Shown here: positions 616-64,000 of the stretch, in pieces | How the letters are laid out: every line of letters begins with the position of its first letter | How positions within the stretch are numbered: the stretch's first letter is position 1 | Notes under the pieces: model-generated | Seen by the model: the letters and a program-made list of their open reading frames with translations, nothing else | Told to the model about the DNA's origin: nothing | The model's database searches: none | Assembly: GCF_025602895.1 (NCBI RefSeq) | Contig: NW_026516234.1 | Span: 62,001-126,000 of the forward strand | Source: Polychytrium aggregatum | Taxonomy: Eukaryota > Chytridiomycota > Chytridiomycetes > Polychytriales | Direction: 5' to 3' | DNA length: 64,000 nt | Position numbers and translations under genes: made by a program

Positions 616-3408
616 TCAACTGCTGAGCAGATTCTGGACGGTCCAGATCCAGTACACGCCTGGATCCGGTTGGATGCTGAAAACATAGTAGAATTCCGTG
701 TCCCGCTTCTGGAGCCTGCGACGATGTCCGTTGCCGACGGAGTGCTGAAGTGGCTGCTCGAGGATCTGCTGGTATGCAGCGACTGGACAAACCGAGTGGG
801 TGGAGCATGGGGTTGCTCCCGATCCCGATGAAGTCGCCGTTGCCGTTGTCGCCGTTGTCACCGTTGTTGCTGAGCCCGTGCCTGAGCTCTGCTGGCTTGC
901 ATATTGGGCCAGTGTCGAGGCGCCTGTTTCCGTCTGTGAGGCCGATGCAGTGCTCGGTGTGAGAGGGGATGCTGAGGCGGTGCTCGACTGTGCACTTGAG
1001 ACCGTCGTGGCTCTGTATGTGCCGTTTGCATACGGCAGCTGCATGGTGGTGTTGCTGGGAGGCACCTGCGACGGAACCTGGCCTGCCGGCAGGGCGGCGT
1101 GAGGCAGGATGACAGCCGCAACGGTCGATGTTGCCTGGGTGGCGGTCTGGTTCTGCACGGCAGTGTTCTGGCCGGCCATCTGGGGCGACTGCGGGATATA
1201 GACCGAGGAGACAACGATGCCGGTCGAGGTAGTGGCGGCCGTGGTCGGGGTGTTGATGCACGGCAGGGCATTGCTCATGTTATTGGCGATGGTGAAGCCT
1301 GTGCGCTGCAGCGATATCGCAACCAGGATGAAGAAAACGGCCTTCTCGATGCTGATGTAGCGGGCACACATGGCGGCGACCGAGATTGGCACTGGACTCG
1401 AGTCTGCCAGCGGTAGTAGATGAAGTGCCTCGGTGGTGTCGTGGTGCGGCTGTACATCAATGCGATGGGTTTTGTTCTCACGCAGGCCCGGGCGGGCTTG
1501 ATCAGCCAGCTGCATCGCGGACACATCCTCTGCCGTCGAGACAACAGCCAGGGCTCGGCTGAGACGCTTGAGCCGCAACTTGAGGTACATCAGGCTCAAG
1601 ATGTGAAAGATTGATCTGGCGAGGAGAATCACGCCGAAGCGCTCGCCCATTTCCTTGCCAAAGCTGGCGCCGTACCGCTCTTCCTCGATATGGAACAGGC
1701 AGTAGTTGAAGAAATCGACAACCAGCTCGGTCTGCAGGACCCCAAGAAAGATTGCTGTGATGTAGTACGTGGACGAGATGGAGAAGCAGACGAGGATGTC
1801 GGCAAGCAGCGACTGGCCAGCCTGGAGGATGCGAGTCTGGATGCCCTTGAGCTTGGAGTCGATGCTGGATGGCTCGACGGCGAGGAGAGTATTTTGCATA
1901 TACCGTCCTCGGAACCAAAGTAGCGCACGGGTGCCGATGTCCGTGTCGGAAACGATGATACAAAGCCCTTGGAAGAGAAGCAGCAGGACAAAGGAGACCA
2001 TGTTGCCGGTGGAGGCCCAAGGGTCGCTGAACTGATCAGATGCCCGAGTCAGTCTCGAGAAACGGTGACGGCGACGAGGCCGGCTTGGAAGACGATGGCT
2101 CTGGCGTCTCTATAAACGATCCCTCACCTGGAAGAAGATACACGAAAAGAACTGGAGCAAGCGTCAGTCCAAACTGGATGCGGCATAGCATATTTGAAAG
2201 GGCATGTCGCTGAGAGGCCGAGTGGGCTGAAAGAGCATGCCGCTGAAAGCCTACCTGCTGTGCGAATTGTACCGGAAACAGCAGCGCAGGCCCGCCGCTC
2301 TCGTCCAGAGATGCCCATTTGTATCTGGAGTTGGTTGCGACGACAGCATGGTACCCCAAAAACATACCAGCAGATCCCTGCACATTAGAACAAAACATTC
2401 GATCGCCGGCATTTGCCCCGATAACATCCTGGCCGAGGGGACACATCGAGATGGCCGAGTCCTACCCGTATGGGATGAGGCGACGGATGACTTGGAAGAC
2501 AATGTGGAACACGACCGTCATGAGAAAGTAGTAGCCCGTCCCGTTGCTGCTGAAGGCAAACAGGACCGAGCCGCCCATCTGCGGCATCATGGCGACGACC
2601 CACAGATACATAACGAGGTATCCGGGAGCCCGGGCGATGGTGCGGCCGTGTTTCTTGGTCCCGTGCATATCCACTAAGGTTACTGCCGCGGCAAGCACAA
2701 GAAACCCCCAGATTGGCCCGCTCATGAGCGCCCAGTAGGCATACAAGTTGCCCGAGAGATCCAGCAGCTGGAAGCACAGCAGAAGACCAAACCAGGCTGT
2801 GATCCAGACGGCCATCAGAGCTTCCATGGCACGGCATCGAGTCGGCTTGGCGACGGGATGAAAGCGGCCAAGATAGAACGCGAGGGCGAGCGGGAAGCCG
2901 ACAAATTCCCAGCACGAGCCCACAATCACCGAGACGAGCACCCCTGGCAGATAGATTGAGTGCGAGAGCGTCCCGTAGACGGAGCCGACCTTGTTGGGGA
3001 GAGCCAGGCCGACCCGGATCAATGCCGCCAGCAGCGAGAACACAATGGCCATGCGGCGCTGGGTCGGCGGCGACGGAAACATGATCATGACGGCAAGGGC
3101 CTTCCACAGGAAGTTGAAGTACATGTTCATGAGATCTGGATGCACATCGGGCGGAGCCAGCGTGAGGGCCAGAGCACTGTCGGTGTGCCGATGCCGTGCG
3201 AAATCAGAAACGACGATTGTCGAGCCAAGCAGGCGCAAGAAACCATACCCCATGTGAGCGCCTCGAGGATGCTATTCCCAGCGAATAGCGTGTAGAAGAT
3301 GGTGATATCGAGGTTGGGCCAGCCCACAGATACCAGTGTGATAAGGGCCACGGCGAGCAGGAGCTTTGAGCGGGGGCCGTAACGACCCATGGCGACCCCA
3401 AGTGCCAT
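616..3408 (-). CDS. Multipass membrane protein of unknown function, 759 aa, with micro-exons
   Basis: Five exons can be joined in phase: 3249-3408, 2467-3135 (donor GTAGGA starts at 2465; exon edge 2466), a 10-nt micro-exon 2368-2377, a 24-nt exon 2128-2151, and 616-2031; total 2280 nt. The first two exons encode about seven hydrophobic segments; the last exon adds more membrane segments (around FSDPWAS, then STYYITAIF, FFNYCLFHI) followed by a Ser/Thr/Ala/Gln-rich region of about 170 residues and a short conserved-looking end. I recognise no family. The overall plan (membrane core plus long low-complexity tail) resembles lineage-specific fungal receptors or transporters, but that is only a guess. 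The start at 3408 is the first ATG ahead of the first hydrophobic segment. The upstream 500 bp is shared with the divergent kinase gene and contains a 12-bp tandem repeat. Confidence 0.6.
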
Positions 3409-3568
3409 CGAGCGATGCGATCGATGTGCAGTCGCCGTTGCTCTTGATGGCGCCTGATGAACAACGAGTCTGCTGAAAGGCTTTCCAATCAGGCCCGGCG
3501 GGACCGATCGCCTGCGACGGCGTTTGAGAATATCAAACCGAGTCCGACACTGCGCATCGACGATGGTG

Positions 3569-3660
3569 CGAATGTATGTGCGAATGTATGTGCGAATGAA
3601 TGTGCGAATGGATGTGAGAATGGATGTGCGAATGGATGTGAGAATGTGAGAATTAATGTG
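3569..3660. repeat. 12-bp tandem repeat in a divergent promoter
   Basis: Imperfect units of the type GTGCGAATGTAT / GTGCGAATGGAT / GTGAGAATGGAT repeat about seven times. It lies between the start of the minus-strand membrane protein gene (3408) and the start of the plus-strand kinase (3924), so it sits in the shared regulatory interval. Unit number is likely to vary between strains. Confidence 0.85.
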
Positions 3661-3923
3661 GGAATACCTGCATGCAAAGTTCATGGGCACTGCATGGTTG
3701 TCGCAGGGATCACAGCCAGCCCGAGACAGCAGCCCATGTCCATTTCCCAACACCCCTGGCCCGTCCGAATGGCCATGTGCGTCCCGCACTCATGGTCCCA
3801 TGGGCAGCCAAAGGGATTGCTTGCTGGCCGAAAATCGCCCGCAATCCACCTCCCCGCCATCGCATCGCTCCCGTCCTCGATCATCTCAATCATCTCGATT
3901 ATCTCGATCTAGGCACTACCAGG

Positions 3924-4799
3924 ATGAGCGACCGCCCTGCTGAACAGGAACCTCAAGCAACGAGACGCTCGCTGGAGCTCAACCAGAGACCCACCGGCCT
4001 GACTGGCATTGCAGCCCTGCCCCAGAGAGGCACCCTTGTCCCGGCCTCGCCCATGACGCCCATGGCATCCACCCCGCCGCTGATCCCGACGATCCTGGGC
4101 CTGACGCCGCAGGGCCTCCCGCTGGATATGCCGGCGCTCTCGTCCAGCTTTTGGACACCAAGACTTGAGCCCGACGAGGCTGCCGAGGCCGGCAGAGACC
4201 CGATGCTCATCTTTGTCCTTGGCGGGCCAGGCTGCGGCAAGGGAACGGTCTGCAGCCGCTTGATCTTGGAGATGGGTCTGATTCACTTGAGCATGGCCGA
4301 GGTGCTCCTCCAGGCCGCCGACGCTCATCCTGAGAGCACCACGGCCGACGAGATCCGCCAGTGCATGGCCCAGGGTGTGCTCGTCCGAGACGACATTGTC
4401 ATCCGCCTGCTCCGCAACCGAATCTACTCGATGCCTGGAGAGACTTTCCTGATCGACGGATTCCCGCGCAACATGAAGCAAGCCTTGATGTTTGAAGACC
4501 AGATCGCCGCCCCCGACCTCGTTCTCTGCCTGGACTGCCCAGAAGCCGTCCTGGCCGAGCGTCTCCAGGCGCAGATGCAAATGCAGACGCCAACGGAACC
4601 GGCTCACCCGAATGCCCGGGCTGTCATAAGCAAGCGGCTCAAGAGCTTCTACCAAGATGGCGTGCCGGTCATCGAACGTTATCAGAGTCTGGGACTAGTT
4701 GTACGGGTCGATGGCCAGCAGAGCCGAGCCGAGGTCTTTGCCAAGGCCAAGGCTGCCGTTGAGGGACTTGTGCAGACCGCTTTCGACACAGAGGCATAG
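3924..4799 (+). CDS. Nucleoside monophosphate kinase (UMP-CMP/adenylate kinase family)
   Basis: Single exon, 291 aa. The C-terminal two thirds are a P-loop kinase of the adenylate/UMP-CMP kinase superfamily: Walker A GGPGCGKGT at about residues 100-108, the NMP-binding DGFPRN motif at about 178-183, and the expected charged helices after it. The enzyme would transfer phosphate from ATP to a nucleoside monophosphate. The usual phosphate-site serine after the P-loop (LSxGDLLR in UMP-CMP kinases) reads LSMAEVLL, so substrate choice is uncertain and activity may be altered. The first 95 or so residues are a proline/threonine-rich extension absent from housekeeping UMP-CMP kinases (about 200 aa), suggesting a divergent paralogue. 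Met at 3924 is chosen because it precedes the kinase frame and follows an in-frame stretch without protein-like composition. Confidence 0.8.
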   Translation: MSDRPAEQEPQATRRSLELNQRPTGLTGIAALPQRGTLVPASPMTPMASTPPLIPTILGLTPQGLPLDMPALSSSFWTPRLEPDEAAEAGRDPMLIFVLGGPGCGKGTVCSRLILEMGLIHLSMAEVLLQAADAHPESTTADEIRQCMAQGVLVRDDIVIRLLRNRIYSMPGETFLIDGFPRNMKQALMFEDQIAAPDLVLCLDCPEAVLAERLQAQMQMQTPTEPAHPNARAVISKRLKSFYQDGVPVIERYQSLGLVVRVDGQQSRAEVFAKAKAAVEGLVQTAFDTEA

Positions 4800-7461: not shown

Positions 7462-8229
7462 ATGCTGCACGACCTGCCTCCGGAAATCGTCATCCAGCTG
7501 CTGGCCCGGTTCACACGGCTGCGGGATCTGTACATGTTCTTGACGGTCTCCAAGCGCATCCGCTCGCTCTACCACAGCGAAGTCCTCCGCAACATCCGCC
7601 GGATACTCTCGTCCCTCCCGCCTTCGACCCGAAGCCAGCTCTTGGTCTGGGGCGCCGAGAAGGGCAACCTCGGCTTCCTGCGGCACCTGCTTTCTTGTGA
7701 CATCCTTGTCGATTCCCCTGTCAACTCCTTGGCCGACTCCTCACAGCTCAAGCATCCAACCCTTCGAGGCGACAGCAAGCTCGGGGAGGAGCTCTCTGAG
7801 CAGAACCTGCCTGTCCCCACAGTCAATGTCCACGAAAACGACGATCAGGCACTCCGGATTGCTGCCGAGAATGGCCATGTCGATGTCGTCAGGTTCCTGC
7901 TCAAGAGCGGGGCGAACGTGAGAGCCTGTTTTGACCATGCGCTTCGATGGTCAGCAACCTTTGGCCACACCGAGGTGGTCAAGACCCTGCTGGACCACGG
8001 CGCCAACATCCATGCCTGCCAGGACTATGCCCTGCGCTGGGCCTCGAGGTTTGGCCACTATGATACAGTCATGGTCCTGCTCTCCAGGGGGGCTGATCCC
8101 CGGGCCAAAGACTCTGAGGCCCTCCTCAACTCCAAAGAAGCTGGGCACTCCTCCATCGCAAAGCTGCTGATGCTCTATGACCGGAGAGACGAGGCCGACG
8201 ACAATCGACCCGCCATCGACGCCGAATGA
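7462..8229 (+). CDS. F-box-like and ankyrin-repeat protein
   Basis: Single exon, 255 aa. The N-terminus (MLHDLPPEIVIQLLARF, then a leucine-rich stretch ending VSKRIRSLYHSE) has the pattern of an F-box helix bundle. Residues 125-245 hold three to four ankyrin repeats: DDQALRIAAENGHVDVVRFL, a second with LRWSATFGHTEVVKTLLDHG, a third with LRWASRFGHYDTVMVLLSRG, and a partial last one. Proteins of this plan normally act as substrate adaptors for SCF ubiquitin ligases, the F-box binding Skp1 and the repeats binding the client. That role is inferred from architecture; no client can be predicted. Such proteins are highly expanded in chytrid genomes. Confidence 0.75.
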   Translation: MLHDLPPEIVIQLLARFTRLRDLYMFLTVSKRIRSLYHSEVLRNIRRILSSLPPSTRSQLLVWGAEKGNLGFLRHLLSCDILVDSPVNSLADSSQLKHPTLRGDSKLGEELSEQNLPVPTVNVHENDDQALRIAAENGHVDVVRFLLKSGANVRACFDHALRWSATFGHTEVVKTLLDHGANIHACQDYALRWASRFGHYDTVMVLLSRGADPRAKDSEALLNSKEAGHSSIAKLLMLYDRRDEADDNRPAIDAE

Positions 8230-9833: not shown

Positions 9834-10019
9834 GGCTGCGGCCGACAGCACCTGAGGCGAGCAGATGGATAGATGCAGATGGCGATTGATTGCGGAGGGC
9901 CAACAACGAGCACAACAGATTGACCGCGAATGGCGAGAAGACGGCGAGGAGGCCTCTCGCCGTCTCGGAGAGTACATTCGCAATGAACGAGACCACAGGC
10001 CCCACATCTTTGTATTCAT

Positions 10020-10805
10020 TACAGTCAATCCAATGAAAAACGGGACACCAGTGATTTTGAGCATTGGCGAGTGTTGTCACTCAACACATCGTGTGCTGGC
10101 CATGACCATTCTGTGTTTTGAATCAAGGACGCCATGTATTCGATGGAGACATGCTGGACAAACAGCTGTACTTCAGCCTGACCCGGCGACGGCGATTCAA
10201 GCGACTCGATCTCCACAGCAAGCGACAGCGCACCGTCCACGAGATGTGCAAGCAAGTCATCGACCAGGCACCACCGGAGACCGAAGTGGTGATTGCCTTT
10301 GGGAATGCATCCTGGAAACAGGGGAAGGGATATGCTTCCAGTCCCAGGAGACTCAGGTTTGCCAAGTACTTTGAGCAGTTCCACCACCACCAGAGAGGCC
10401 CACCAGACCGATCCATCTCCAAGATCCATGTGTGCTCTGTGAACGGGTTCAACACATCCCAGGTGTGCTCACATTGTCGGGAATTCAAGCGACTCGAGTC
10501 ACCCGAGCATCTTGATATCGAGAAACCACACTTTGTCCGGAGCTGTGCAAGCTGTCATACGCTGTGGGATCGAGACATCAATGCAGCCAGGAACATGATC
10601 TCGGTATGCCAGTCGATCATCGCCACAGGAGATCGACCGGGTGTATTCAAGACTGTGCTTCCCAAACCAACCAAAACCACTCGATTGCCAACCAGGACGG
10701 GAAACAATCTCATGGCTTGCTCACTGGGCCTACCGTCAGTCAGCGGGCTTTAGACATCTGAAGCCAGAAAGGGAAAGTGTCCCGTTTATTTCTGGATAGA
10801 CTGTA
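10020..10805 (+). mobile_element. Fanzor-bearing TIR element, internally deleted
   Basis: The element is bounded by TA dinucleotides (10020-10021 and 10804-10805). Left end TACAGTCAATCCA, then AAAACGGGACAC; the right end, read on the other strand, is TACAGTCTATCCAG then AAACGGGACAC, giving imperfect inverted repeats of about 28 bp. TA duplication and CAGT-type ends are what Tc1/mariner-type transposons show, and Fanzor1 proteins are known passengers of such elements. The interior holds the C-terminal third of a Fanzor (10106-10753) and about 85 bp of 5' sequence ending GTGCTGGCCATGACCATTC, which is shared with the two miniature copies at 13560 and 44416. In those copies the ATG of this motif opens the reading frame, so it probably marks the original start codon. 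No transposase is present; the element must depend on one elsewhere. Confidence 0.85.
10106..10753 (+). pseudogene. Truncated Fanzor (eukaryotic TnpB-like RNA-guided endonuclease), C-terminal part
   Basis: An open frame runs from 10106 to the TAG at 10751-10753. It has no ATG before the conserved region, so it is a remnant. Counting residue 1 at 10118: residues 20-48 are a basic helix, EVVIAFGNASW lies at about 55-65, and VNGFNTSQVCSHC at 108-120 is the RuvC-II region followed by the first zinc-ribbon pair (C117, C120). The second pair is C143/C146 in SCASCH, and RuvC-III is WDRDINAARNM at 150-160 with D153 as the expected catalytic acid. The position that is Glu in bacterial TnpB RuvC-II (VDEF) is Gly here. 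Published work on Fanzors reports such a loss with a compensating glutamate elsewhere, so this fits Fanzor rather than bacterial TnpB. The RuvC-I aspartate and all nucleic-acid-binding lobes are missing, so this copy cannot cut DNA. Confidence 0.85.
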
Positions 10806-11012
10806 TTCAAGGTGTGGCGAACGATTACTTCAGTGCCACAGATTCCCAATCGCACAAATAGGGTAGTCGAAAACAATCCAACGGAGGGAATGCGCATTCA
10901 TGGTGCAGACGGATGGACATTTCCCTGGAGTTTGCTCTTACACATGAGGTGATTTGACGGCGCATGGGCGACTGATCCGCAGTCGACCATACCTTTGGAA
11001 TATGAGATGCAG

Positions 11013-11056
11013 TCACCAGCACCAGCACCAGCACCAGCACCAGCACCAGCACCAGT
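11013..11056. repeat. (CACCAG)n hexamer repeat
   Basis: About seven consecutive CACCAG units, 3' of the LtrA-like gene. A 13-bp unit (GAGATTGTACAGA type) repeats three times just downstream at about 11066-11098. Confidence 0.85.
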
Positions 11057-11141
11057 ATCAGCACAGAGATTGTACAGAGATTGTACAGAGATTGTGCAGA
11101 TGGGTCAGTACTGCACCAAGGACAAATGACATACGCAGAGC

Positions 11142-11212
11142 ACGACCAGCATGACCAGCATGACCAGCATGACCAGCATGACCAGCATGACCAGCATGAC
11201 CAGCATGACCAG
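11142..11212. repeat. (TGACCAGCA)n 9-bp repeat
   Basis: Seven to eight perfect copies of a 9-bp unit, immediately 3' to the stop codon of the LtrA-like gene (11219-11221). Read on the minus strand it gives Trp-Ser-Cys or similar low-complexity peptides, so an ORF through it is not real. The LtrA terminal codons GAGGAGTAAGT contain a perfect GTAAGT donor, so an alternative splice into this repeat cannot be excluded. Confidence 0.85.
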
Positions 11213-11218
11213 TAAAAC

Positions 11219-13384
11219 TTACTCCTCAAACAGGGCCAGCGACATCAGGAGGCCAACAATCGTGCCCATCAGCGCCAGCATCGACAGACTCTCGCCCCAA
11301 ACCGCCAGGACGACCATGGCAACGGCCACTACAGTGCGCATGACGAACCGAATGGTGTCGGACACACGCCGGTCGTGGCACGGATAGAGCTCGTGGGCCA
11401 GCGACATCAGAGTGAGACTGATGATCGCGATGCTGCACCCAGCAGCGAGGATCCAACGATGTGCAGCGGTCACGGCGGGAGCCGGCAGGTCCGCATTCAC
11501 AGCGTTGGCATGCTCAGTGACGACGTAACCCATGGCCGAGCCAACCGCAATGAGGGAGGAGTGGAGCGGAATGTGCAGCAAGTACCATGTCCATCCGGCA
11601 ATGGCCTTCCGGCGAGCCGCATGCACGTAGTAGTTGCTGCTGTCGATCGCAAAGTAGATCCAGTGGAAGAAGATGGCGATGAGCACTCCAAAGATCGTGG
11701 CCAAAAACGACGTCGAGATATGAGGCGAAGGCGAGTCCCAAAGGAACCCGACGACGATCTCGCCGATGACGATCAGAGTCAGGGCACCGTATCGTTCGGT
11801 GTTGTGCTCGATGTTGATGGCGAGCCTGTGGCTGATTTTTAGATACCGTCTGGAATGGCGATGGATGCGTTAGCTGACAACACGGCCCATGAATTCGAAT
11901 GTATCCATGTGTCCGGCGATCGAGCAGGTTTCCACAGTCCTAATCGAGGCCAAGAGTCTTGGCTGCGAGAATTGGTGCTCCTGATGGGTGGATGGACATG
12001 TGCTGGAATGATGCGACGGACTTACCGAGTGGCCAGCGCGCACATACTTGGAAGAAACAGGTCGCAAAGTGACGATATCCACCACAGCGGCGTGCGATAG
12101 GCAGCAGGAAGAAACACCGATGCCAGCCAGGGAATGGTGGAAAAATAGTGTCCGAGCTGGTAGGGAAAGACATCCTTCCAGAACTGATTTGCACGGAGCC
12201 GAGCCGGCAAAGAGGGCGAGTAAACCGTGTCAAGTCGAGGCTGTCGCAGCCGCCTGCATCGACGCTTGTAGCGGCCACTGCAGCCAGTCGCCGCAGCACA
12301 CACCGGCTTACCTGTCGAGAGTGATGGTTGCCCATGATCACAAAGACAAAGTTGAGGACCCGGAGAATGATGAACAATATGATGAAGATATTGGCGGTGG
12401 AGCTGTCGCCTTGGTCAAAGATGTGGACAATGTTGATTCCCATTGCCGAGACGAGCACGGTCATGGCCCAGGTGAAGAGACGGTGGACGAAGCCATCGGC
12501 TCCGTAGCGGTTGACGTTCATGTGGATCATGGACCAGGAGCTAGTCAGAAAGTGTGTGCGCACGGTTGGGTGTCAGGGAGGGGGCAAAGTGGATGTGAGC
12601 CGGCTTGGACGAGGAAACCGAGTTTGAGCGATATCGGCATGACGGCTGGCGAAAGCGTACTTCCAGACAACAAGGAATGCCAGCATGTAGCTGTTGACAG
12701 CGATGCCATCGACATTGTCGTGCTTGAAGAGATAGCCTGGGTCGCAGAGGGGACGGATTGCCGACGTGCAGGACGCTGTCAATTGGTGGTGCGGCGAGCC
12801 GTGAACGGCGGATTGTTGCTGATGCATTTTGGGCAATCGCCATCGGGCGACCCAGCCACATACCAAGCCGGTCAAAGGCAGCAACATAGACCAGGTCGAG
12901 GAACAGCTGATATTCAAAGGGTCAATTATCAGTGGTGCGAGCCAGGCGCTGGCTAGTCGTTCGGTTGGATGCTTCTTTGTGGCTGCTCCACTCGTTGCCC
13001 ACCCTCGCTCGGTACGAAAGCTGCTCATTGACGGCCACCCACCTCGTCCCAGGTGACCTTGCGAAGCGATTTTTCCCGGTAGAGGACGCCATCGATAAAG
13101 TACTGGCGAGGGCGGATGGCGGGAAACAAGCTGTGGAGATGCTCGTCGACTTCAGGCAGGAATTTGATTTGCCCTCGCTGGCCAAACTCGGTGAAGGTGT
13201 GGTGGTGCTCGACGGCGACCGCCTCGAGATGGTGCAGATTTCCGCGGCGATCTGTCTCGGTCACGACTGCGGTGACATTGGTGCTCGAGTCCTTGGAGCT
13301 GAAGGGCTCCTCGGAGAAGGGCTCCTCGGAGTAGATCTCCTCGGGATCGTTGCCGATGTAGATGCCTCCTCCTTCGGTGTCCAT
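11219..13384 (-). CDS. Low-temperature-requirement A (LtrA) family membrane protein
   Basis: Six exons join in phase: 13043-13384, 12864-12906, 12661-12736, 12312-12540, 12026-12183 and 11219-11831 (1461 nt, 486 aa from Met at 13384). The 43-nt second exon encodes LFLDLVYVAAFDRL, the family's signature first membrane helix. Later landmarks are YLFKHDNVDG, MNVNRYGADGFVHRLF, NHHSRQ, HRLAINIEHNTERYG followed by LTLIVIGEIVVGF (the conserved ERYG...GE block), and HWIYFAIDSSNYYVHAARR. LtrA proteins have about ten helices and an unclear molecular role. The N-terminal region is proline-rich and acidic. The open frame continues upstream to 13609 into the terminal repeat of a miniature transposon, which would add 75 residues; Met13384 is used because it is the first not supplied by the transposon or lying in its flank. 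Confidence 0.85.
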
Positions 13385-13559: not shown

Positions 13560-13871
13560 TACACTTTATTCAGAAAAAAACGGGACAATATAGCCGTTTC
13601 CATGAACATGTAGTATGTGATGTGCTTGCGTCAAGCAAAGCCACAAGAAATAAAACAGATCACTTTGGCAGCCTCCGAGTGAAAACCACCGGTCGCTCTC
13701 CGATCTCCACAATCGACTTGCACACTGCGATCATGTTGCGCGCCGCATTGACGTCGCGATTCCACACCGTCTGGCGAATGGTCATGGCCAGCGCGCGATG
13801 ATATTGGGTAGCAAAATATTCGATGAATGGTCAAAAACCCGGGTGTCCCGTTTTTTATTGGATTGCCTGTA
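13560..13871 (-). mobile_element. Miniature Fanzor-derived TIR element, copy 1
   Basis: 312 bp between TA dinucleotides. On the minus strand it begins TTACAGGCAATCCAAT then AAAAAACGGGACACC (matching the left end of the 10020 element) and ends with CGGG..TTCTGAATAAAGTGTA (matching its right end). Inside are about 85 bp of 5' sequence up to ATGACCATTC, a 41-codon Fanzor C-terminus (13660-13785) and about 100 bp of 3' noncoding DNA with a perfect 6-bp hairpin (13623-13637). It is about 97% identical to the copy at 44416. It sits directly in the 5' end of the LtrA-like reading frame. Confidence 0.88.
13660..13785 (-). pseudogene. Fanzor start codon fused to RuvC-III tail (41 codons)
   Basis: The frame reads MTIRQTVWNRDVNAARNM and ends TRRLPK then TGA. 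WNRDVNAARNM aligns with the RuvC-III motif WDRDINAARNM of the longer Fanzor fragment at 10565, and the following VCKSIVEIGERPVVF aligns with VCQSIIATGDRPGVF. The start ATGACCATTC is shared with the 5' end of the longer element, so the frame is the two ends of one gene joined by an internal deletion. No catalytic protein can result; retention may be because the region also encodes the 5' part of the guide RNA, which in known Fanzor systems overlaps the 3' end of the gene. Confidence 0.8.
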
Positions 13872-16473: not shown

Positions 16474-18033
16474 TCAGAGCACACGGAGCTGGAAGGGAAT
16501 ATCATGCTGCGGCGGCAGGATGGCATAGTCAGGACGGGTGTCGAATTCGGGCACGGGCTGCAGCAGCTCAAAGTCGGCATGGAGCAGCGACTGGATGACA
16601 AAGTGCTGGATCTCGCGGCGGGCAAAGACTCGGCCAGGGCACATGGACGGGCCGCCACCAAAGGGAGTGAGGTTGTTGCGCACGGGACGGCCGTCTTTGA
16701 CAAACTTGGTGTCGGAGGAGGCTAGGAAGCGACTGGGATCGAAATTCTTGGGGTTGGGATAGACCTCGGCGTCTCTGTGGGTTGCATAGGGCACACAGGC
16801 AATGGTGTCGCCCTTGCGGATGCGGAACTGCTGCTGAGTCGACTTGATGGTCAGGATCTGGTCTTTGGCAGCGATGCGGTTGAAGAGGCCGATCGCAGTG
16901 AGCCGCAGGGACTCGGAGATGCATGCCATGAGAATGGGGTAGTCCGACTGCGACTCCTCGGTGGCTTTGGCGTCGTCTGCGCTGGCCGAGGACTCTGTGG
17001 AATCGGAGCCGTTCTGGGACTGCTTCAGCTGGACGGCGGCAATCTCGGCCTTGACGGCGGCGTGCCATTCGGGGTTGCTGACGATCAGCGCCAGGGTCCA
17101 CGAAGCAGCGAGCAGGGTATTCGAAGCAGCGGCCCACAGCAGCGAAAACTGCAGTTGGTCATGCTGGATGGTTGAGAGCGAGCGGGAAAAGGTCTCGTGG
17201 CGAGCTTTGGCAATCTGGCTGATGTTGGTGTTGTCTTCCGAGTCATAGGCCTTCCTGAGGTCGCTGGCGAGTTGGTGCTGCAGCCGACGCAGATGCTGGA
17301 CAAAGATCTCGGGCCCGCCAAACATCAGAGCAGCAAAGTTGCGGTCAAACTCTGCAAATCCGTCGTAAAGGATGGTGGGGTCGACGGCTTCACCAAAGAT
17401 GGCCCGGGTGGTGGCATGGAAGAAGATTTTGCGGCAGAACTCAAAGAAGCCGGGCAGCTGCGTCCACTGCGCATCCGGACCTGTTGCTCGAGGCAGGTCC
17501 TGGAGAACGGCCTGCAGCTTGGCCTTGAGCTGGTCGGTGAAGGACACCATCATCTGGTCGAGTGCAGCGCCGTGGAGCAACTTTTTGTACTGGATGTGGA
17601 CATCGTCGTGGATGTGGGTCAGGGCGTGCGGCGGGGTCAGGAAGGCCTTGTCGTTAATTTCTTCGACAACGTCGCGGAAGCGCAAGTCGGTGGTGTTCTT
17701 GGTGATGGTCGGATGGGTGAATGGGTCCAGCACAAAGGTCATTCGGCGACCGGCAACAAAGAGCGTGAAGCATTCGCCGTGGGTCTTGCGGAGGGTCTGG
17801 AGCAGCTCGGGTCCGAGGGTGCTGAAGGTCAAGGCGGCGCCCATGAATGGCATCCAGCCAGAGACCAGCGGGGGTTCGTCGTGGAAGCGAAGGTACTGGC
17901 GATAGACGAGGCGGCCACCAAAATAGGCAGCAGCGACCAGCGAGGAGGTGCCAGCGATCGACAGCAGAGATTGCTGCGAGAGCGCCGAGGAGAGTTGCTT
18001 CCAGTCGAGCAGCGATGAGGTGTCGACAAGCAT
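16474..18033 (-). CDS. Cytochrome P450, CYP7/CYP8-like
   Basis: Single exon, 519 aa from Met at 18033. An N-terminal helix (LLSIAGTSSLVAAAYFGG)anchors it to the ER membrane. The haem-binding motif is FGGGPSMCPGR with Cys465 as the thiolate ligand. ESLR is the K-helix ExxR, and DPSRFL follows the PERF-type region. In the I helix the usual acid-Thr pair is replaced: LLWAAASNTLLAASW. This Asn-Thr pattern is known in CYP7, CYP8 and CYP39 (bile-acid and prostacyclin enzymes), and overall spacing fits that clan. The reaction would be oxidation of a sterol or lipid. Unusually for this genome there is no intron. The frame stays open 108 codons upstream of the Met, but those codons are low complexity and overlap the divergent promoter. 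Confidence 0.85.
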   Translation of the reverse strand: MLVDTSSLLDWKQLSSALSQQSLLSIAGTSSLVAAAYFGGRLVYRQYLRFHDEPPLVSGWMPFMGAALTFSTLGPELLQTLRKTHGECFTLFVAGRRMTFVLDPFTHPTITKNTTDLRFRDVVEEINDKAFLTPPHALTHIHDDVHIQYKKLLHGAALDQMMVSFTDQLKAKLQAVLQDLPRATGPDAQWTQLPGFFEFCRKIFFHATTRAIFGEAVDPTILYDGFAEFDRNFAALMFGGPEIFVQHLRRLQHQLASDLRKAYDSEDNTNISQIAKARHETFSRSLSTIQHDQLQFSLLWAAASNTLLAASWTLALIVSNPEWHAAVKAEIAAVQLKQSQNGSDSTESSASADDAKATEESQSDYPILMACISESLRLTAIGLFNRIAAKDQILTIKSTQQQFRIRKGDTIACVPYATHRDAEVYPNPKNFDPSRFLASSDTKFVKDGRPVRNNLTPFGGGPSMCPGRVFARREIQHFVIQSLLHADFELLQPVPEFDTRPDYAILPPQHDIPFQLRVL

Positions 18034-18341
18034 GTTGGAGGTTGGACCGGGTTGAGTTGGCGGGGAGTGCGGCGACACTCGCAAATATATCCAAAAACCT
18101 GTCTCGGTGGCGAGGCAACGGACCAGGATATCGACGGCAAATTGCTGGGTGGCTGAGCTCTGGGAAGCAAGGGGACGGCGGCAAAACGGCAAAACGGAGG
18201 GCAGATCGATCATGGCGCGGCGGGCATTGGCGATGGATCGGGTTGGCTGGCTGGTCGGGTTGTTCATTCCGATCGCATCGCCATCTGCCTCGCTGCACAC
18301 CACCACCACCACCACCACCGGCCCATCCATCCGCTCTCGAC

Positions 18342-19840
18342 ATGGCCCAACTCTCACTCGAACACAGCCCAGACATCTTCGCCGTCGTGTGCTGCAACGA
18401 CAGCTTCCAGCTTGCCCTCGACCTGAACACCATCAAGACCCTCCTCCGAGTTTGCAAACGAGTCCGCCCTCTGCTGAGCTTCAAGCTCGCTCGTTTCCAC
18501 ACCTGGTGTCAAAGGCCGAGCTCTGTCGCTCTGGCGAATCGCTGCAGATCGGCCTGACCCCCAGCGAGACGATTGCGCTCTCGCTACACTGCGAGAACCA
18601 AGACACTGGCAGCCAGTCCTGGCTCGTTGCTCTGGCGGACCAAGGAAACGCATCTGCCTCCTATCTCCTTGCCAGGGTCCTGCAAATCGAGCTTCACGAA
18701 GTGCGGGCGGTGGACTACCGTGCGTTTTCGTCCATAAAACCGCAATTTATCCACCGGCTCAAGTCGGCAGCCGATTCTGGCCATCCAATGGCACAGTTCT
18801 ACCAGGCTGGCTGTTTCCTCAGCGGCTCTGGATTCGACCGAGACCACGCAAAGGCCGTCGAGCTGTACCGCAGTCTTGCGGATCGCAGAATCCCTCGGGC
18901 CCAAGTCGCTCTCGGACGATGTTATGAGAATGGCGAAGGTGTCGATCAAGACTTTGACTCAGCCATCGAGTGGTATTCCAAGGCAGCAAACCAAGGCAGC
19001 GAAGACGGTCGACTCCACATTGTGTTCCTGCAAGCATGGTTCTCGTTCATCGGCCGTGGTGTCGAGCCGAGCGACATCGATGCCTTCAACCGCTGGCAGG
19101 AAGTCAGCATCCAGTCCACCGATCCGATCATCAAACCCATCGCCACTCACATGGTCGGATGGATGCACTACCTTGGCCGGGGCACCCAGCGATCTCAGGA
19201 AGAGGGAGCCAAGCTCATCCGAGAGAGCAAGTCAAAGGACTTCCCTCTGGAAGAAGACAACTCTCTGGCTGGATTCAATCATGGCAGCTCCCACTCACCC
19301 GCATCTCGCAAGTTCCACCAGCTGTGTGAGCTGGGATCGGAGCGAGACTGGCTCTGCAAGCACTTGATGGCTGTGTGTCTGATGAACGGACTCGGAACTG
19401 CGGAGGATGCAAAGAAGGCGGCGGGTATGTTTGAGCAGCTCGCCATCGACGGTCACAGCGACAGCCAAGTATGGATTGGAAGGTGCTGCTTCTACGGCAG
19501 AGGAATATCCGAGGACAACGACAGGGCACTTGAGTGGTTCAGCGAGTCGGCACGCCAAGGCAACTCGTATGGGCAGTGGAAGGTTGGTGTGTGCTATTCC
19601 AACGGATACGGAACCGCTGAGGATGTTGCCAAGGCAGCAGAGTGGTATCGCCGGTCGGCCGAGCAAGGAAATCGATACGGACAGGGCTGTCTCGGCGTGA
19701 GCTTTCTTGATGGCCGCGGGGTTTCCCACGGGCCATCGACCACCCCGAGAAGCACGGCAAGTGGCTGTGATATCAATGCAATTGGACAGATGAGAGCCGA
19801 GGACAAAATAATAGTATTCTTTCCAACCGCAGATGTTCGC

Positions 19841-44415: not shown

Positions 44416-44729
44416 TACACTTTATTCAGAAAAAAAAACGGGACAACATAGCCGTTTCCATGAACATGTAGTATGTGCTGTGCTTGCGTCAAGCAAAGCC
44501 ACAAGAAATAAAACAGATCACTTTGGCAGCCTCCGAGTGAAGACCACCGGTCGCTCTCCGGTCTCCACAATCGACCTGCACACTGTGATCATGTTGCACG
44601 CCGCATTGACGTCGCGATTCCACACCGTCTGGCGAATGGTCATGGCCAGCGCGCGATAACATTGGGTAACAAAATATTCGATGAATGGTCAAAAACCCGG
44701 GTGTCCCGTTTTTTATTGGATTGCCTGTA
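44416..44729 (-). mobile_element. Miniature Fanzor-derived TIR element, copy 2
   Basis: 314 bp between TA dinucleotides, same orientation and structure as copy 1 at 13560. By eye the two differ by about ten substitutions and one A insertion (97% identity), so they moved recently. The left and right inverted repeats, the 6-bp hairpin (44481-44495) and the ATG-to-RuvC-III fusion are all kept. The element ends 517 bp upstream of the gene starting at 45246. Confidence 0.88.
44518..44643 (-). pseudogene. Fanzor start codon fused to RuvC-III tail (41 codons)
   Basis: Same frame as in copy 1: MTIRQTVWNRDVNAACNM, ending TRRLPK then TGA. Relative to copy 1 there are a few amino-acid changes (R to C, A to T, K to R, I to T) yet the frame is intact. 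Both copies keep the same deletion junction after ATGACCATTC, showing descent from a single deleted ancestor. Confidence 0.8.
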
Positions 44730-60627: not shown

Positions 60628-63600
60628 ATGAAGTTCTCGCACTCCATCCAGCTAAACTCTTCCCCAGAGTGGGTCGAGTACTATCTGTGAGTGCCTTTGC
60701 TAGAGACCGCCCACGGCTTCCTCTCACGCCATGAGTCGCAGGCCTCGGCCCCGGCTCAGCACCGCTTGATCCTGCACCGAGCACATGGATGCTGAGCAAC
60801 TCGATCCACACTTGTTGTTTGCCGCGCACTCTCGGGTGGCCGATTCTCTCTCTTCCGCGGCATCGCTCCGACGCTAACACTGGCATTATCCCTCTCGCGG
60901 CGTTGCTCCGTTGCTCCGTTTAGCAACTACTCCAACCTCAAAAAGCTCATCTATGCCTTTGAAAAGGCGTCGTTGGGCTTGGCCCCCATGCCAACGTCGC
61001 TCAACCAGCTCGAGAGCGAAGCCGCCCCCGCCGCCCCCGCCGCAAGCGAAAGCACTCCGCTCCTTACCAACTCGCCTTCTTCGGCCTCGCTCGTCTCCGA
61101 TCCCGATGCCGTCTTCACCACCGCCCTCGATGAACAGCTTGAAAAGATCAACCGCTTCTACCGAACCAAGGAACGCGATTTGTTTCTCGAGGTCGAGGCC
61201 CTCCACAACGATCTGAGCTACCTCGAGGCCGTCAACGACGAGTTCGATGTCGTCGTCGACACCAGCGCCCTCTCCACTTCGGAGGGCGCCCCTGAGCAGC
61301 CCGTCACTCCCAGCAGCGACGCTTCGTTTTACTCCCAAGGTCCTTGGGGCTCGGTCTCTCGCCGGCATTCGAGCCAGTCCGGCTTCCGCGACAACACCGA
61401 GCGCCGCATCATCGGCGTCTGGTCGTCAACCCGCGACAGCGAGATGAAGCAGCAGCGCAAGCTCTTCCGAAAAAAGGCAACCGAGCTCTTTGTCATCCTC
61501 TCTGAGCTTCAGTCCTATGTCGAGCTCAACTACACTGGCTTCACCAAGATCCTGAAAAAGTACGAAAAGGTGACTGGGCGCCGGCTCAAGCGCACCTATT
61601 TGCAAAAGGTCGAATCCTCCTACTCGTTCCGCGCCAACACCAAAGCCAGCCTTGCCGAGCAGCTCGACCGTGTCATTGCTCTCTATGCCCGTATTGCCAC
61701 CGAAGGTCGCATCAGCCTCGCCAAAACCGAGCTGCAGAGCAACTTGCGTGAGCTCATCGTTTGGGAGCGCAACACCATCTGGAGGGACCTGATCGAACAC
61801 GAGCGCAAGAGCCAAGCGATCGAGCTCAAGCCCGCTGTTGTCGAGAAGGATGAGACCGAGCGTGGCGGCCAGTGGTCCATCTGCGGTCTCAAGATTGCTC
61901 TGCCGTTTGTATCCGCCAAGCCCATCAGTCTGCTCGTCTCCATTGCCCTCTTTGGATTTTTGCTCGCCTACCCGATCTTGGACTCTCCCGAGCAGCAGAA
62001 CTGTTTGGCCATCCTTGTGCTCGCCTCGAGTTTGTGGGCTTTTGAGGTAAGCTGATCCAGCGGCAGCAGTGAGCGGAGCTCGGCAAAATGGCGCTCTGAA
62101 ACTGCTGGCATCGTCCGGGTGCTTTTGCTGGTGCTTGCCGTCCGCCATCCAGCCGATATGATCGATTTCAGCAAGATCACCAACGCTGCAGCGGGAGGGG
62201 CAATTGGACCAGTCCCTTGCGTGCGAGCCATCCCAGCCTCTTACCCACGCATCGATAACTCCCAACCTTACAGTGCACCGAGCTCTTTGTCACTGCCATC
62301 CTGGTGCCTCTGCTGGTCGTTGGTCTCCGTGTTCTTCGTGAGCCTGTGGTCAACAAAGACGGCTCAGTCAGCTACGTTCGCATGAGCGCCAAGCCTGCCG
62401 CCAAAAAGATCTTCTCAGACATGTTCTCGCCCGTGATCATGCTGCTCCTGGGTGGCTTTACCATCGCCGCCGCTCTCACCCGATACGGCATTGCCAAGAA
62501 CATTGCTGCCTTTGTGCTGGGCAAGGCCGGCTCAAGACCCTCGACCGTTTTGCTCGCCAACATGTTTGTTTCGACCTTTGCGTCCATGTGGATCTCGAAC
62601 GTCGCGGCCCCAGTCCTCTGCATCTCGCTGATCCAGGTATGTCTGCGTGAGTCTTGGACGAGCCGCCACCGAAATCGTGCGGTTGGGACTTGAAATCCGC
62701 AGCAGAGTCCTCCTCATCATCGCCCGACGAGACCCTGGACCGCTCTGCTCACTAACGGGATCTTCTCGCTCGACACCTCTCAGCCGATCCTCCGCAACCT
62801 CCCGCGCAAGTCGCCCTATGCAAAGTGCCTGATCCTTGGCATCGCTATGGCTGCCAACGTTGGCGGCATGGCCTCGCCCATCTCGTCCCCGCAAAACATC
62901 ATCGCTATGAGTATCATGCAGCCTTCCCCCAGTTGGCTTCAGTGGTTCATGATCGCCCTCCCCGTGTGTATCTTCATCGATATACTCATCTGGGCCCTGC
63001 TTCGACTCATGTTCAACCCCAACGGACAAGAATCAGCCGATCTCCAACCCCCGGAGCTCTTCCAAAACAACCAGAGCGGCGGCATGGCATCCATGTCCCG
63101 TACGCAGTTCTACATTCTCTTCATCACTATGCTCACCATCTTCCTGTGGTGCATCGAGTCACAGATCGAGCAGTATGTTGGCGAAATGGGTGTCATTGCC
63201 ATCTTGCCGATCCTTGCGCTCTTTGGAACCGGAATCCTGCCCAAAGACGAGCTCAATGCGTTCCTGTGGCCCGTCGTGCTTCTGGCGATGGGCGGAACGG
63301 CCCTCGGCAAGGCTGTCGAATCATCGGGACTCCTCACCGAGATGACCCAGCAAATGGCTCCTTATTTGAACGGCCTCTCGGTCTTTTGGACGGTCGTGGT
63401 GTTCTCGGGCCTGGTTCTGCTTGTCACCAGCTTTATCTCGCACACCGTTGGCGCTCTGATCATTCTGCCTGTTGTGGCGCAAGTGGGCGCAACCCTCCCG
63501 GATCCTCGTGCGCGAACTCTCGTCATGGCTACCAGTAAGTGCTGCCCGATGACGGCTATCGCGCCAGACGCATGCTTTCCTAGTTGCTTGTGGGAACTGC

Positions 63601-63968
63601 GGTGGCGTGTGCTTGGTGTCGGCGTCCCTCTTGGTGGTATACATCCTTTCTCTCTCGGTGCAGCCCATCCTCTATCTGGTTCGCTATCCAAATCCCCACA
63701 TCCCTTCGGCTCGATTCTCCTCGGCACCAAGCCGTCGGCTAACTGCTCCTCAACTTGCTTGTCACCAGCCCTGATGTGCAGTGGCGCCATGGGCCTTCCC
63801 GTCTCGTCGTTCCCCAACATGAACGCCATCTCGCAGGAGGATCCCACTGGAGTCAAGTGGCTCAGCGTCGCCGATTTCCTTTCTGTCGGCGTTCCGGCTG
63901 GATTCATCGCCTACGCGGCCATCATCGGCATTGCCTATCCGATCATGGAGTACATCCACTTTGGATGA
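60628..63968 (+). CDS. PHO91: SPX-domain low-affinity phosphate transporter (DASS family)
   Basis: Five exons in phase: 60628-60686, 60924-62046, 62274-62636, 62784-63534 and 63769-63968 (2496 nt, 831 aa). The N-terminal SPX domain starts MKFSHSIQLNSSPEW, VEYYLNYSNLKKLIYAFEKA, and continues with FYRTKERDLF and LRELIVWERNTIW; lysines in ETLKKYEKVTGRRLK-type helix (here KILKKYEKVTGRRLK) are the inositol-pyrophosphate site. The transporter part has about ten to twelve helices with divalent-anion-symporter motifs: SNVAAPVLCISLIQ, NVGGMASPISSPQNI (sodium/substrate site) and TLMCSGAMGLPVSSFPN. Yeast Pho91 exports phosphate from the vacuole and its SPX domain responds to cellular phosphate signals. 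Length and order match that family. Confidence 0.93.
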
Positions 63969-64000
63969 GCAAGTCGTCCACAGAACGCTCCCGCAGCTTT

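Follow-up and report, generated by a model that had tools for sequence, protein, structure and literature searches.

A Tc1/mariner-type transposon family with two alternative predicted Fanzor modules in the chytrid Polychytrium aggregatum

Several described systems place Fanzor proteins in or near transposable elements. For SpuFz1 and the Spu-1 elements of Spizellomyces punctatus, 42 full or partial Fz loci and 134 ghosts have been reported, the bases CA are conserved upstream of the left repeat at Fz and ghost loci alike, and the TAM of SpuFz1 was measured in vitro to be CATA (Saito et al. 2023, PMC10432273). According to the available part of that paper no transposase is flanked by the Spu-1 repeats, and its authors suggest that Fanzor aids transposons, possibly in trans. 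A Fanzor1 with a TAM of the TTA type is already known from GtFz1, which uses TTAAN and has a wRNA overlapping the end of the ORF, as is predicted here (PMC10432273, PMC11423790); one sentence of PMC11423790 swaps the order of CATA and TTAA, and the results given there use TTAA for GtFz1. For GtFz1 the available text of Saito et al. (PMC10432273) reports neither inverted repeats nor a clear link to a transposase. Fanzor1 together with a mariner-like transposase and TA duplications occurs in PGv-1 and PUl-1 (Bao and Jurka 2013, PMC3627910); PGv-1 and three relatives are described as single-copy, and neither a flank rule nor a guide RNA was found in the available part of this description. The same source contains the Sola2-Fanzor elements DFa-1, DFa-2 and DFa-3 and PPa-1, PPa-4 and PPa-5, which have nearly identical 5' regions followed by unrelated Fanzor-bearing 3' parts, the Sola2 transposase being mostly deleted in DFa-1 and DFa-3 (PMC3627910). 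As far as the available text goes these elements provide a precedent for the exchange of modules; they belong to another superfamily, and no passage comparing the versions in their target flanks was found in it.

The elements of Polychytrium aggregatum described here are like Spu-1 in that a predicted Fanzor1 lies within inverted repeats with conserved bases outside the left one. They differ from Spu-1, as far as it is described in the available text of PMC10432273, in encoding a transposase between the repeats and in having a predicted TAM of (W)TTA rather than CATA. In addition, two Fanzors are found on practically one transposase, and one of the two, FzA, also occurs in CACTA-ended elements. 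With PGv-1 and PUl-1 they have the predicted Fanzor1, the mariner-like transposase and the TA duplications in common, whereas their ends number in the hundreds. As read from the sequence, what is new is a set of mariner-Fanzor elements with their own transposase, a high copy number, Fanzor modules that have been exchanged, and flanks obeying a rule which tracks the module. No title listed by a literature search, conducted mostly without subscription papers, indicated an earlier description of such an element.

The analysis started from a window of 64,000 nucleotides (assembly GCF_025602895.1, contig NW_026516234.1, positions 62,001 to 126,000), in which a preliminary description had placed a TA-flanked inverted-repeat element with a Fanzor fragment. 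Its borders proved to be exact to the base. The element occupies positions 10022-10803 (782 bp), and the inverted arms at 10015-10048 and 10777-10810, which take in the TA and some bases next to it, show 79% complementarity over 34 nucleotides (Table 1). The part of the left end that is kept reaches into the start of the transposase gene, whose ATG lies at 10102. At the deletion junction, bases 10119-10134 (TGAATCAAGGACGCCA) correspond, as judged by eye, to the sequence found at the transposase stop and beyond it in relatives, L009 among them, and the 674 bp after the junction correspond to bases 3118-3786 of the full-length element. Only the C-terminal part of the Fanzor is left, as had been noticed, and the remaining portion, estimated as a third in the preliminary description, is closer to the last quarter (about the last 213 of 913 codons). 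Judged by its sequence, the window copy has been reduced by deletion from a Tc1/mariner transposon; it is non-autonomous and catalytically dead, and taken by itself it is an ordinary derivative.

Table 1. Features of the Fanzor-bearing element and its relatives in the window (positions are those of the window)
Feature	Position	Strand	Remark
Left TA, target site	10020..10021	.	T precedes (...CATTA)
Left terminal inverted repeat, CAGTCAATCCAATGAAAAACGGGACACC	10022..10049	+	arm comparison; family pattern of left ends
Left end kept	10022..10111	+	90 bp, matching bases 1-94 of the full-length A element
Deletion junction	10112..10129	+	
211-codon ORF, in the frame of the FzA C-terminal part from 10130 onwards (roughly residue 701 of 913 codons)	10118..10753	+	
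GGG (G) codon at the site of the relocated RuvC-II glutamate	10445..10447	+	GAG in 27/27 other FzA copies compared
Zinc ribbon CSHC...CASC (PF07282)	10466..10555	+	
RuvC-III WDRD	10565..10576	+	
Predicted wRNA-scaffold region, 121 nt; overlaps ORF end and right inverted repeat	10683..10803	+	prediction, modest covariation
Right terminal inverted repeat, GTGTCCCGTTTATTTCTGGATAGACTG	10777..10803	+	arm comparison
Right TA, target site	10804..10805	.	
FzB ghost, 308 bp: about 100 nt of left end and last 214 nt	13562..13869	-	second derivative in window
FzB ghost, 310 bp, same class as the ghost at 13562-13869	44418..44727	-	third derivative in window

The 211 amino acids of the window ORF match the Pfam domain PF07282, a zinc ribbon of the TnpB/Cas12f type, at 7.6e-10 (39.3 bits, cut-off 26.3), and both the zinc ribbon CSHC...CASCH and the stretch WDRDINAARNM are present as previously described. 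According to the available text of Yoon et al. (PMC10711439), Fanzors are marked by the DPG motif of RuvC-I and by a glutamate that lies six residues ahead of the zinc ribbon. The latter points to the position read as VNEF in the family, where the distance from the glutamate to the first cysteine of the zinc ribbon is six in both FzA and FzB. The window copy reads VNGF at this place, and this had been taken for a Fanzor trait, which inverts the actual situation: the family keeps the relocated glutamate, and among the FzA copies compared the window copy alone has changed GAG to GGG. VNGF as a hallmark of Fanzors was rejected because all 27 of the other FzA copies compared, a set that contains duplicated loci, have GAG. 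In an alignment of twelve Fanzor proteins of the family the DPG of RuvC-I, the PF07282 domain and the RD after the zinc ribbon are found in all twelve, and the relocated glutamate in eleven, with lysine in L047; outside this alignment, L019 has QD in place of RD. In the window copy the DPG is deleted, and since RuvC-I is missing and the relocated glutamate is lost this copy is considered dead. When family profiles were compared with the PDB, SpuFz1 came out on top of both lists, in line with the anticipated best match to a chytrid Fanzor1, and TnpB and Cas12-type chains ranked after it. These matches are weak (E 0.0049 for the C-terminal parts and 0.067 for the full-length profile), but the alignment with the C-terminal profile extends nearly as far as the end of the SpuFz1 chain (residue 1030 of 1032).

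The surroundings of the element have a G+C content of 54-62% per 2-kb step of the window. Tandem 9-bp repeats of the AGCATGACC and AGCACCAGC types lie near the element at 11018-11228, and gene-like ORFs at 3672-4799, 7462-8229, 16474-18357 and 62847-63968 contain adenylate kinase, ankyrin-repeat, cytochrome P450 and citrate/sodium symporter domains. A lone TGTCCCGT at 63094 is probably due to chance; otherwise positions 62001-64000 show no similarity to either reference element.

Full-length proteins with the C-terminus and the ends of the window copy, the relatives that the preliminary description had proposed to look for, are found in the same genome (64.68 Mb, 418 contigs). With the 211-amino acid query 150 matches were scored, the best 150 of 1580 first-look candidates, the weakest of them at 2.8e-109, which is far from any chance resemblance. 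Among these 150 there are 37 FzA frames of at least 750 amino acids, by a count which reads through stops, and 31 of the 37 contain no stop within the matched part. The left-end sequence, allowing up to two mismatches, matches 378 times in the genome, and its reversed control does not match at all. Raw copy counts are too high, as loci are seemingly duplicated in the assembly: the 100 flanks listed contain 74 distinct ones, about a quarter being repeated. Copies are often paired with identical flanks (C56/C190, C13/C331, L051/L063), and the assembly seems to contain duplicated haplotypes or segments.

The full-length element L023 measures 3786 bp between its TAs and consists, in this order, of the TA, the left repeat, a transposase frame of 325 codons, a TGA, a Fanzor frame of 913 codons, the right repeat and the TA. 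Its transposase frame contains a DDE_3 domain (Pfam 2.9e-24) with D-34-E spacing (DD34E), its Fanzor frame GIDPG and E-x6-C, and the first methionine is codon 16 of the former and codon 18 of the latter. One TGA (L023:3904-3906, minus strand) parts transposase and Fanzor, both of which lie in one reading frame; readthrough or a shared transcript is possible from this arrangement. The Fanzor frames of full-length elements range from 790 to 913 codons. Fuller relatives with the same ends thus bear out the assignment of the window element to a Tc1/mariner-type element with a Fanzor fragment, and the term passenger, used for it before, turns out to be too weak for an element that encodes its own transposase. 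The right TA is present in 31 of 33 entries, one locus being counted twice and L035 and L065 being altered, and, among 74 distinct right flanks, in all but one. The left TA belonged to the search pattern for most entries and is not independent evidence there; it holds in the window copy. All terminal repeats start with CAG, except for the right end of FzB elements, which alone has CAC. Purifying selection on the transposase and Fanzor genes is shown by dN/dS values of 0.19-0.36 in five groups of sequences.

Another finding was that two Fanzors occur in this family. FzA and FzB are only 41-42% identical; FzB has about 790 amino acids, and 49 of its 57 scored matches, which span the query nearly or wholly, contain no stop. 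The first 1000 bases of FzA and FzB elements, on the other hand, are 97% identical (970/1000), and this similarity stops near the transposase stop. For the transposase a dS of 0.077 was obtained between the FzA and FzB groups and of 0.055 and 0.062 within the groups, in a sample of four FzA and five FzB copies. These nine copies have a single fixed transposase difference between FzA and FzB, which lies at frame position 2, before the first methionine; position 325 is unaligned in the FzB sequences, the frames ending with A in the FzA elements and with G in L035. In these comparisons the Fanzor together with the right end behaves as a module that was swapped downstream of a transposase which both element types have in common. 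Had gene conversion acted on the transposases of two older elements, the result would look no different.

The composition of individual copies was read at 40 left-end sites among the 100 matches listed. The first 20 listed were read over 4.7 kb, one of them stopping at a contig end, and a further 20 over 1.4 kb; nine listed sites lying within the range of this second set were passed over, and because several of these were already known to bear a transposase, short copies are over-represented among the 40. Long copies were found at 26 sites, comprising 14 with FzB, one with FzA (L037) and 11 read over their first 1.4 kb only, which matches the FzB element. Ten sites have short copies with both ends. 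The remaining four belong to neither class (L051, L063, L057 and L049): L051 and L063 are a single duplicated locus whose right end is absent from the stretch read, as it is in L057, and L049 has a left end of the FzB type and an interior broken by what appears by eye to be a gag-bearing LTR retrotransposon.

FzA was also encountered in a second kind of element. Of 20 long-frame FzA loci that were fetched, five are transposase-Fanzor elements (L013, L016, L017, L022 and L023), 14 have common flanks of the CACTA type, and one, L027, is unlike either class; it combines a long FzA frame and the mariner right end with a 5' part resembling neither the transposase-bearing nor the CACTA-type elements. 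The CACTA-type flanks are also found in three short FzA copies, L002-L004. CACTA ends and 3-bp target duplications define the CACTA/EnSpm superfamily. The elements concerned, called A2 here, have CACTATCAATTTTTT...CATAGTG ends. Their right end CATAGTG (CATCGTG in L003) is located about 250-350 bp past the mariner right repeat, and their left end CACTATCAATTTTTTCC is readable in 11 of the 14 long and in the three short copies, L018 being altered and L021 and L024 having no clearly readable left end. Both ends could be read at 12 distinct loci, the duplicates L010 and L004 being omitted, and 8 of them show a 3-bp target duplication by eye; a scripted count, which includes duplicates and has wrong left ends in six loci, yielded 9 of 17. 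Left ends of the A2 type occur 122 times in the genome, with none for the control. In the A2 elements themselves no CACTA transposase has been noticed; in the genome as a whole PF02992 (Transposase_21) has 29 matches. About the last 17 transposase codons precede FzA in the A2 copies inspected for this (L009, L021 and L002), and the mariner left end was sought in the 14 long A2 copies and not found. In mariner copies the sequence after the right repeat varies by locus; in all 17 A2 copies fetched the mariner right repeat is followed by a variant of TAAGTATCT, so that the guide would be frozen if this sequence is the guide. FzA remains under purifying selection in these elements, with a dN/dS of 0.34 among the 14 long A2 copies.

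The flanks of the insertions follow a rule on one side. FzB and FzA ends were distinguished by the base at position 4 of the element (G versus C or T), which means that the type is assigned in part from one left-end base; this typing agrees with the Fanzor 3' end in 23 FzB and 9 FzA loci and also with the FzA gene of L037. For FzB the left flanks were taken from the first 100 of 131 matches to a whole-genome pattern with a base other than G at position -8, and identical octamers were removed. Among the 74 distinct flanks thus obtained, 71 have T at -3, compared to 12% expected before TA in the window (p 4e-61), and in 57 of these 71 A or T is found at -4. The mirror base on the right side, A at +3, is present in 15 of 73 distinct flanks from the first 100 of 132 matches (12% expected, p 0.045). 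When exact left ends of both types are taken together, the base before TA is T in 187 and another base in 16. In the contig range common to both lists there are 90 T and 2 other bases for FzB and 9 T and 8 other bases for FzA (Fisher 2.4e-6), one end with fourth base A being left out. The FzA-type flanks, 19 in total and ten of them from loci with the FzA part read, contain 17 distinct ones. T is found in 9 of these, which differs from FzB (Fisher 3.5e-5) and is above the 12% background (p 5e-5), and G in one versus 32% expected (p 0.018). Some preference for T is common to FzA- and FzB-type ends and, since the FzA-type flanks are also enriched in it, the transposase may account for a share of this preference. 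The flank was readable in 15 of the 40 full-length ghost matches, and by eye 14 of these have T and one has A. The last base of the element, just before the right TA, is G in each of the 53 tails read (with duplicates counted). The right junction of the element itself therefore does not have the TTA motif, and this G would spare the element from cutting there.

At the opposite end, RNAalifold applied to 21 distinct FzA tails (30 before identical ones were removed) predicts that the right repeat pairs with a strand lying about 100 nucleotides inward of the end. In this long-range fold standard pairs occupy 98% of the cells versus 18-62% when the strands are slid, the two helices between the strand and the right repeat are paired in 99-100% of cells, and two-sided changes are found at 2 of 20 pairs. 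A local fold, derived from L027, yields 90.6% versus 30-51% and two-sided changes at 3 of 39 pairs. In neither fold does the count of pair types exceed that of shuffled controls, the observed number being reached in 83 and 165 of 500 shuffles; the relatedness of the tails limits the weight of all these pairing statistics, and the two folds compete for the right repeat. Folding energy is only moderately low, with z of -1.5 to -2.0 for four FzA tails and -0.88 for one FzB tail. Of the FzA ghosts, the smallest (L067 and L070) retain at the 3' side the final 116 bases of the reference element, a stretch starting just before the folded region, and among the ten both-ended short copies 62 to 663 nucleotides are retained on the 5' side and 116 to 729 on the 3' side. 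The FzB ghost class yielded 40 near-full-length matches of 92-100% identity that were scored, out of 1161 candidates. FzA codons overlapping the folded region have a dN/dS of 1.0 in one block of 15 codons and 0.33 in the last 14 (10 usable pairs). From these models the 3' end probably encodes the guide RNA of the Fanzor; its features favour a guide RNA, yet would fit subterminal binding sites too.

The explanation we consider probable is a two-gene transposon of the Tc1/mariner (DD34E) type with a guide RNA at its 3' end, which is retained through Fanzor and TAM and shares this benefit with ghosts in trans. The transposase would cut the element out and paste it in at TA. The Fanzor, guided by the sequence just past the right end, would then cut the restored empty site, the element-bearing copy would serve as template for the repair, and the element would be put back. 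That cutting of the empty site keeps the element is inferred by analogy to TnpB work, as discussed in the available part of PMC10432273. Insertions beside the TAM of the Fanzor, predicted to be 5'-(W)TTA for FzB, would persist as a consequence of the cutting of the empty site and the repair restoring the element, and others would be lost. Short ghosts which keep the 3' end would benefit in trans. The TTA is read as the TAM of FzB, again by analogy, since it stands at the same place as the S. punctatus motif, outside the left end and continuing into the TA, is one-sided, and tracks the Fanzor module rather than the transposase, from which we infer that the Fanzor, more than the transposase, determines which insertions persist. 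Tentatively, the family might even represent a natural swap, in which the TAM of the Fanzor decides on the survival of transposon insertions, those of ghosts in trans included, and in which the FzA captured by CACTA elements, with its frozen guide, has been freed from homing.

Instead of a TAM, the one-sided TTA could be a target preference of the transposase complex, that is of the transposase and the element ends, with the Fanzor being uninvolved. T is enriched at -3 next to FzA-type elements as well, which have practically the same transposase, and the right ends and the fourth base of the left end differ between the elements, so that the orientation of the integration complex could differ. 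As the terminal repeats of FzA and FzB elements are not the same, an effect of the DNA ends on the flank is also possible. TA is palindromic, however, and a preference of Tc1/mariner in the cutting step should show on both sides, whereas the mirror A is in slight excess at most; and the transposases of the nine copies compared have no fixed difference at aligned positions from the first methionine onwards, while the rule differs (71/74 versus 9/17). We regard this explanation as unlikely. Somewhat unlikely, too, is that the 3' end, of which at least 116 bases are kept, is retained by chance or for subterminal binding sites of the transposase rather than for a guide RNA. The sample on retention is small and non-random (10 both-ended short copies among 40 sites), the ranges retained on the 5' and 3' sides differ only slightly, and the RNA of the FzB tail is not unusually stable. 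Against this stand the nearly complete pairing of the inner strand with the right repeat in FzA tails, a contrast of dN/dS within the folded region which makes the evidence for a coding constraint mixed, and the S. punctatus ghosts, which in the available account retain sequence resembling the wRNA region of Fz loci (PMC10432273).

Two further explanations concern the nature of the window ORF. A functional truncated Fanzor under selection, for example a DNA-binding regulator, would agree with the frame being open for 211 codons and with the many short copies that have open frames of about 230-330 amino acids among the best 150 of 1580 candidates; the ORF has neither RuvC-I nor the relocated glutamate, though, and choosing the best-scoring 150 candidates favours intact frames, which makes such a function very improbable. 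Bacterial or viral contamination by a gene of the TnpB rather than the Fanzor type is hardly conceivable. The zinc-ribbon model is common to TnpB and Cas12f, and chains of these types rank after SpuFz1 in the PDB list, but hundreds of ends on many contigs with differing flanks, the DPG with the relocated glutamate, and the DD34E transposase speak against it. In one scan of IMG/VR contigs for viral relatives 41 stretches matched the peptide pattern and none was confirmed.

With a transposase, two Fanzor modules, ghosts, and a flank motif which tracks the module all present in one genome, the idea of retention by Fanzors becomes testable. The TAMs predicted for this purpose are TTA for FzB and a looser rule disfavouring G for FzA. 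The question which this family addresses is the role of Fanzors for their transposons.
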